A DNA stretch of 64,000 nt from assembly GCA_002030045.1 (NCBI GenBank), contig LQBI01000004.1, positions 1 to 64,000 on the forward strand. The letters run 5' to 3'. Every line of letters starts with the position of its first letter. Positions within the stretch are counted from its first letter, which is position 1. This document shows positions 312 to 1,436 of this stretch, piece after piece. The notes beneath the pieces are model-generated. The model saw nothing but the letters and a program-made list of their open reading frames with translations. It was not told where the DNA came from and did no database searches. The DNA comes from Candidatus Aegiribacteria sp. MLS_C. GTDB taxonomy: Bacteria; Fermentibacterota; Fermentibacteria; Fermentibacterales; JCC-6. The translations under genes were made by a program, and so were the position numbers.

Positions 312-797
312 TCAGAATGTAATCTTCTCCACCTTCGGCTCACTGCCCTCCTCAAGGGTCAGTAGAGCCATGGACCTCTTTCCCTTTGAAGAAGATACCG
401 CTCCCGGGTTCAGTCTGAGAACACCATCCTTCAAGTCGTTGTTGAACTCGTGTGAATGGCCGTAGATGATGATGTCCGGGTTGCGGGGCTGAAAACGCCT
501 GAGGAGTCTTTCCCTGAGTCCGAAGCCCGGTCCCGACCCGTGGGTCATGCAGATCCTGAAACCCTCTATGGTCAGTTCCAGACTCTCCGGATACCGCTCG
601 GTTATATCGCAGGGGTCCATGTTGCCACTGACCGCCTTCAGCGGAGCGAAACGCTCGAGATCGTGCAGGACCTCCAGCTCGACCACATCGCCTGCGTGCA
701 GTATCAGGTCGCACTCTGCACAGACCTCATATACCCGGCCGGGGATCGCCCCCAGCCTTGTGGGTATATGAGTGTCTGATAGAACGGCTATCCTCAA
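312..797 (-). CDS. YfcE/MJ0936-family metallophosphoesterase
   Basis: 161-residue single-domain calcineurin-like phosphoesterase. The metal-site motifs are visible in order: SDTH near residue 8, HAGDV near 35, SGNMDPCD near 58, MTHGSG near 85 and YGHSHEF near 112, then the typical NPGAVS close to the C terminus. Family members are Mn-dependent phosphodiesterases, usually active on model substrates with unknown physiological partners. The start is TTG at 797, immediately after the TAA of the upstream peptide gene, with no gap; the family alignment (MRIAVLSDTH) supports it. Last gene of a three-gene HU unit, so probably translationally coupled. Substrate is unknown. Confidence 0.9.
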   Translation of the reverse strand: MRIAVLSDTHIPTRLGAIPGRVYEVCAECDLILHAGDVVELEVLHDLERFAPLKAVSGNMDPCDITERYPESLELTIEGFRICMTHGSGPGFGLRERLLRRFQPRNPDIIIYGHSHEFNNDLKDGVLRLNPGAVSSSKGKRSMALLTLEEGSEPKVEKITF

Positions 798-893
798 TTA
801 GACTTTCTTCTTCTTATGCCTGTTTGCGCGGCGCCTCTTCTTCATCTTGTGTTTTGCGATCTTTTTTCTTTTTTTCTTCTTACCGTTCGGCAT
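798..893 (-). CDS. 31-aa AURKAIP1/COX24 (mS38)-like basic ribosomal peptide
   Basis: A 31-codon gene: begins MPNGKKKK, contains KHKMKKRRRANRHKK and ends KKV. More than half the residues are Lys or Arg. The pattern matches the small bacterial AURKAIP1/COX24-domain proteins common in Bacteroidota and relatives, whose mitochondrial counterpart is the small-subunit protein mS38, so a 30S-associated role is likely. It sits exactly between the HU stop (TAA 896-894) and the TTG of the phosphoesterase, sharing neither gap nor overlap. ATG start. Easily missed because of its size. The family call rests on the K/R pattern and length only. Confidence 0.75.
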   Translation of the reverse strand: MPNGKKKKRKKIAKHKMKKRRRANRHKKKKV

Positions 894-1242: not shown

Positions 1243-1436
1243 CCCTGGCTCTTGCTCACAGGAGGCTTAAGATAGACAATAACAACCAGTTCGGCAAGGG
1301 CCTCAATTGTGACATTCAAAACGAATGATTCTGTATTTTATACTATTTATACAGATGGATAATTGTAAATGCCTATGGTCCTCTGACCCATTTCCACTGT
1401 TTCCCCGGTATTGAGCCGGGCAGCGTTCTCGTTCGA

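Follow-up and report, generated by a model that had tools for sequence, protein, structure and literature searches.

A 31-residue peptide encoded between HU and a YfcE-type phosphoesterase in Candidatus Aegiribacteria matches ribosomal protein bS22, and the HU-bS22 neighbourhood recurs across bacteria

A 31-codon gene that lies between an HU/IHF-family gene and a metallophosphoesterase gene in Candidatus Aegiribacteria sp. MLS_C is, as judged from its sequence, a newly found case of an already known protein, ribosomal protein bS22, the bacterial relative of mitochondrial mS38, and its place next to HU is a recurrent arrangement. We consider it very likely that the peptide is bS22, produced from the middle cistron of an HU-bS22-yfcE transcript, translationally coupled to its neighbours and co-varying with growth. 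Direct support for this reading comes from the sequence identity of the peptide, purifying selection on its gene, the tiling of the three genes, the recurring HU-bS22 pair and a conserved promoter-like block. The window is the whole 64,000-nucleotide stretch of contig LQBI01000004.1 that was analysed, and the features at the locus are as follows.

1269-1297, minus strand: promoter-like block upstream of HU (TTGCCG, 17 nt spacer, TATCTT), from an alignment of 13 loci
894-1175 (open reading frame extends to 1181), minus strand: HU/IHF-family DNA-binding protein, MTKAD start (Pfam Bac_DNA_binding, 2.1e-29)
801-893, with stop codon 798-800, minus strand: bS22 coding sequence, 31 aa, from matches to PDB chains, COX24_C and phylum genomes
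312-797, minus strand: YfcE-type metallophosphoesterase, inferred TTG start, 161 aa (TIGR00040 yfcE; Pfam Metallophos_2, 2.3e-36)

Identity of the peptide

The minus-strand open reading frame at 798-893 translates to MPNGKKKKRKKIAKHKMKKRRRANRHKKKKV, in which 19 of the 31 residues are Lys or Arg. A phmmer search of solved structures matches four distinct chains and nothing else up to E 10: chain S22 of PDB 7jil (7jil_5; E 8.7e-7, 77% identity over 30 residues), a chain named AURKAIP1/COX24 domain-containing (9i5v_10; E 6.3e-5, 73% identity), a chain named bS22 (8fmw_V; E 2.4e-4, 68% identity) and, weakly, the mS38 chain of 8a22 (E 0.051, residues 8-30 aligned). We take 7jil to be the Flavobacterium johnsoniae ribosome and 8fmw to come from Borrelia burgdorferi, with bb0822 as its bS22. 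In an alignment of 15 rows, which include three PDB chains and in which the first residue of GTG and TTG rows is written M, residues P2, G4, K6, K8, K11, H15, K16, K19, R25, H26, K27 and K28 are invariant. The peptide has the traits of bS22, with a length of about 30 aa, a Lys/Arg content of over half and the shared invariant residues, and it belongs to bS22 by its match to structure chains named S22 or bS22.

Profile databases capture this relationship less well. Pfam COX24_C (PF08213) aligns to residues 5-31 at 18.5 bits (E 0.0019), under the gathering cut-off of 23 bits, and the peptide is therefore filed as bS22 and not formally as PF08213. On the peptide's own genome, the Pfam COX24_C profile finds nothing at E 0.001, and of 14 control genomes it matches in one; since this model is too weak here, our own 15-row alignment was built for profile searches. 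NCBIfam returns no match to the peptide up to E 1. The initial annotation had called the gene mS38/AURKAIP1-like, and the structure chains together with COX24_C bear this out, the peptide being bS22 by sequence; of the AURKAIP1/COX24 profile search it proposed, the alignment was recovered but not a score above the cut-off. It had also remarked that short basic genes of this kind are often missed, and this one could indeed be missed by annotation, given the COX24_C score and the empty NCBIfam result. In the accessible parts of the literature, bS22 was first recognised in ribosome structures and may be left out of annotations (PMC10618245, PMC10085706), as it had been in Borrelia, where it is an essential-gene candidate with a GUG start (PMC10618245).

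Gene order and selection within the phylum

The three genes follow each other directly. The HU stop codon (896-894) is succeeded by the peptide ATG (893-891) with 0 nt between them (TAA-ATG), and the peptide stop codon TAA (800-798) by the TTG at 797-795, again with 0 nt between them (TAA-TTG), just as the initial annotation had described. Once 13 duplicates are removed from 41 loci, the window's phylum is represented by 28 distinct ones, its own among them, and all 28 have HU, peptide and phosphoesterase in this order. HU and the peptide are separated by 0 nt in 25 of these loci and by 1 nt in three, a spacing held across three families of the phylum; between the peptide and the phosphoesterase, 15 loci have 0 nt, four have 1 nt and nine have 3 nt. 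Because gaps of 0-3 nt recur across the 28 loci, the tiling is more than chance. The trio that the initial annotation had suggested seeking in relatives is thus found throughout these loci, and the outcome it had named as telling against the gene, a lack of peptide homologs beside conserved neighbours, is not what we see. The peptide starts with ATG in 21 of the loci and with GTG in seven. For the phosphoesterase, the codon in register with the start of the model is TTG at 27 of the 28 loci and ATT at the remaining one (L102).

The peptide gene is under strong purifying selection, with a dN/dS of about 0.02. Over 13 genus-level loci the ratio is 0.022, with means of 12.0 synonymous and 4.4 nonsynonymous differences per pair and synonymous sites near saturation (pS 0.73), and over eight loci of a second genus it is 0.025. 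A protein search (E up to 10) matched the peptide in 25 of 40 genomes and the profile search from the 15-row alignment in 28 of the 42 genomes of the phylum, own included in each case. Of the 24 phylum genomes with a completeness of 90% or more and a contamination of no more than 5%, 22 have a match; the other two (G026 and G028) are among the 14 phylum genomes in which the profile search found none. A second match in genome G010 (L027) was rejected as chance, having no start codon, a different sequence and neither HU nor phosphoesterase nearby.

Both neighbours score above the cut-offs of their families. The HU/IHF-family gene scores 102 bits against PF00216 (cut-off 22.4), and its product probably starts at the second ATG (1175) and not at 1181, because a GGAGG motif ends 6 nt before the second ATG and 12 relatives lack the first. 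The first ATG is absent from 12 of the 12 other relatives aligned, by a script that sought MTKAD or VTKAD and so assumed the start but not the missing upstream ATG. The genome's own 16S rRNA retains the anti-Shine-Dalgarno sequence CACCTCC. The phosphoesterase, a predicted enzyme, scores 88.8 bits against the NCBIfam yfcE model (TIGR00040; cut-off 56.25).

Transcription signals

The promoter-like block ends 93 nt before the HU start, and within it TATCTT is kept in 13 of 13 aligned loci and TTGCCG in 11 of 13, while the leader around it has otherwise diverged. Fourteen loci were supplied to this alignment, of which one (L003) was left out, its HU start falling outside the MTKAD/VTKAD pattern. 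A consensus promoter scan missed the block, which has eight of 12 matches where nine were required, and listed five other promoter-like sites (1.4 expected); of these, the site at 1369-1340 upstream of HU was set aside, as it has no conservation in the leader alignment. A consensus scan for terminators found none in positions 1-2200. Since the conserved block precedes HU, it suggests a single HU-bS22-yfcE transcript. The intergenic gaps are too small to hold a promoter; one may lie inside a coding frame.

Rfam, at gathering thresholds, and ARAGORN place three tRNAs in the window, and Rfam at the same thresholds places no leader RNA family there. One of the tRNAs, a tRNA-Arg (CCG) at 207-282 on the same minus strand, starts about 30 nt past the phosphoesterase stop codon, and transcription of the HU operon may run on into it.

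HU-bS22 linkage across bacteria

The bS22 profile matches 152 of 388 searched genomes, own included, all of which were required to be at least 90% complete. From the 130 matched genomes outside the phylum (152 less 22), 121 contexts were read, the nine weakest being left out, and with one locus from the protein search (L023) these give 122 loci in 84 families, each family classed by its closest HU-bS22 locus. At 61 of the 122 loci (38 of 84 families), a same-strand HU gene is found no more than 120 nt upstream, and at nine (seven families) it is farther away, up to 1500 nt. In the stretch read, no HU was seen upstream at 52 loci (38 families), and in one further family the contig was too short. 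HU on the opposite strand occurs at none of the 122 loci and downstream HU at one (L238).

A set of named loci, which is heavy in Flavobacteria, gives a similar picture: among the matches listed, HU lies within 120 nt upstream in 59 of 69. Broken down, and again among the matches listed, this spacing is seen in 43 of 44 Flavobacteriaceae, 4 of 5 Fidelibacterota (titled Neomarinimicrobiota), 8 of 8 Bacteroidota carrying no family name and 3 of 3 loci carrying no phylum name, while HU is not within 120 nt of bS22 in 5 of 5 spirochaetes or in one Bacteroides locus; single loci from Saprospiraceae and Cryomorphaceae have HU at 947 nt and 531 nt, respectively. The contigs of two loci in the set (L054 and L090) end too near bS22. 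On one contig titled SAR202 (Chloroflexota; L035), which has HU upstream, the encoded peptide agrees with the Flavobacterium type at all of 30 residues; we suspect a binning error, and the locus is included in the 59 of 69 listed.

The initial annotation had considered the coupling of HU to a ribosomal peptide an unusual arrangement, which does not hold given its occurrence in 38 of 84 other families and in the listed named loci. The interest of the locus is the opposite, in that the HU-bS22 neighbourhood recurs in many distantly related bacteria; the arrangement is probably old. The pair is nonetheless dispensable, as 38 of 84 families, the five spirochaete loci and the Bacteroides locus showed no HU upstream in the stretch read. 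The bS22 protein is known already, and a description of its linkage to HU was not found in the open-licence literature searched, including the accessible parts of PMC6582356, PMC10085706 and PMC10618245.

Beyond the pair, the neighbourhood varies. Taking one long same-strand gene upstream and one downstream per family, the upstream gene is an SppA-type peptidase (S49) in 16 of 67 families, and the downstream gene is the exonuclease VII large subunit in 9 of 68, a TPR-repeat protein in 9 of 68 and a metallophosphoesterase in 7 of 68. Among the unnamed loci, tblastn places SppA upstream in 22 of the 61 that have HU no more than 120 nt away, in 2 of 9 that have it farther off and in 0 of 52 where no HU was seen; among the named matches listed, the corresponding counts are 4 of 59, 0 of 2 and 0 of 8. 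At the 61 unnamed loci with close HU, xseA is downstream in nine. A literature search for sppA, rpsA and ihfB together found no paper. HisG is the upstream gene in 8 of 67 families, a second recurring bS22 context. In Flavobacterium suncheonense (L042), RNase E/G is downstream, and HU is preceded on the opposite strand by a gene with HhH-GPD and NUDIX domains that reads as MutY-like.

The genome under study has five HU/IHF-family genes, the bS22-linked one and four others (C5, C7, C10 and C14). A tree of 64 HU domains, taken from 23 genomes (own plus 22), was built on 89 columns and has many weak forks; in it, these four lie apart from the linked HUs. The linked label needs six changes on this tree against 18.7 in shuffles, and a single clade of 22 linked rows and one semi-linked row is not rejected (p-AU 0.31). 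The linked HUs thus appear to cluster and to tend to one subtype, with a single clade falling short of proof.

Proposed mechanism and alternatives

Ribosome binding, co-transcription, re-initiation and growth-rate coupling are what we infer for the bS22 reading. By homology, bS22 would fit into the pocket that h2, h27, h44 and h45 form in the 16S rRNA, where it would stiffen helix 44 near the decoding centre, and would touch 23S rRNA to make an extra intersubunit bridge. The promoter before HU would drive one HU-bS22-yfcE transcript, on which ribosomes ending HU may re-initiate directly on bS22, with re-initiation on the TTG of the phosphoesterase presumably weak. In this way the nucleoid protein HU and the ribosomal protein bS22 would rise and fall together with growth, while the phosphoesterase is taken as an operon passenger.

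The most serious alternative is that HU and bS22 sit together with no functional coupling, both being strongly expressed and belonging to an old sppA-HU-bS22-xseA/yfcE cluster that is slowly breaking up and is held by inertia. The turnover of neighbours fits such decay, with sppA upstream in 22 of 61 loci, xseA downstream in 9 of 61, a metallophosphoesterase downstream in 7 of 68 families and RNase E/G at one Flavobacterium locus, as do the 38 of 84 families with no HU seen upstream. However, the HU-bS22 gap stays at 0-1 nt across three families of the phylum while the outer neighbours turn over, close linkage is seen in 38 of 84 other families, and the linked HU tends to one subtype, so that we regard inertia as possible but doubtful. 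A bolder proposal goes the other way: the bS22-linked HU would be an ancient, distinct HU/IHF subtype that works with the ribosome (in rRNA synthesis, 30S assembly or bS22-dependent transcript control), and the pair would act as one unit that ties the packing of the chromosome to ribosome supply in many bacterial lineages; at present we think this unlikely.

The remaining alternatives concern the peptide itself. Its high Lys/Arg content and its position next to HU could also describe a non-ribosomal peptide, a free basic binder of nucleic acid or membrane such as a nucleoid helper of HU or an antimicrobial-like peptide, and free Cutibacterium acnes bS22 inhibits bacteria according to the accessible part of PMC10085706. 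Yet basicity alone would not keep P2, G4, H15 and H26, and 12 positions are invariant over 15 rows that include bS22-named chains, which makes a free peptide very improbable. That the frame is merely a chance Lys/Arg-rich one is suggested by its short length and biased composition and by the one low-score chance match met (L027), but this is refuted by a dN/dS of about 0.02, matches in 28 of 42 phylum genomes and a fixed position in 28 of 28 loci, and we give it virtually no weight.

For annotation, HU adjacency offers a simple positional rule for finding bS22 where the sequence score is weak. Coupling of the pair is testable in Flavobacterium, as 43 of the 44 listed Flavobacteriaceae loci have it within 120 nt.

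Comparison with known systems

The closest relative in sequence is S22 of 7jil, which shares 77% identity over 30 residues, equal length and common invariant positions with the peptide; the accessible literature describes the F. johnsoniae ribosome as holding bS22. The surroundings differ: bS22 is followed by RNase E/G in the single Flavobacterium locus annotated (L042) and by yfcE here. The Borrelia burgdorferi protein has 68% identity (8fmw chain), and the GUG start given for Borrelia in the accessible part of PMC10618245 has its counterpart in the GTG starts of 7 of 28 loci in the window's phylum, whereas five spirochaete loci other than Borrelia, among the matches listed, have no HU upstream. 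The mS38 protein (AURKAIP1/COX24_C, PF08213) resembles the peptide over residues 8-30 by its chain and residues 5-31 by COX24_C, with COX24_C below cut-off; the peptide corresponds to the short core only, mS38 being longer in the text available of PMC10618245. Available parts of the papers compare bS22 with both mS38 and eL41 (PMC10618245, PMC10085706, PMC6582356) and seat it in the 16S pocket of h2, h27, h44 and h45 in contact with 23S rRNA (PMC10618245), its location on the ribosome also being given in PMC10085706.

For the gene pair, the nearest likeness is found in enterobacteria, where ihfB belongs to the rpsA transcript and ihfA to that of pheST, and where IHF supply has been suggested to be linked with translation capacity (PMC8942017, in its accessible part). 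There, as would be the case here if the predicted co-transcription holds, an HU/IHF-family gene shares a transcript with translation genes; the rpsA-ihfB operon differs in that its ribosomal gene is another one and lies upstream of ihf, whereas bS22 lies downstream of HU. The HU-bS22 pair would thus parallel the enterobacterial coupling of IHF to translation genes, and if the pairing reflects coupling, the rpsA-ihfB idea of a nucleoid protein supply tied to translation capacity (PMC8942017, accessible part) would extend to many other bacteria.
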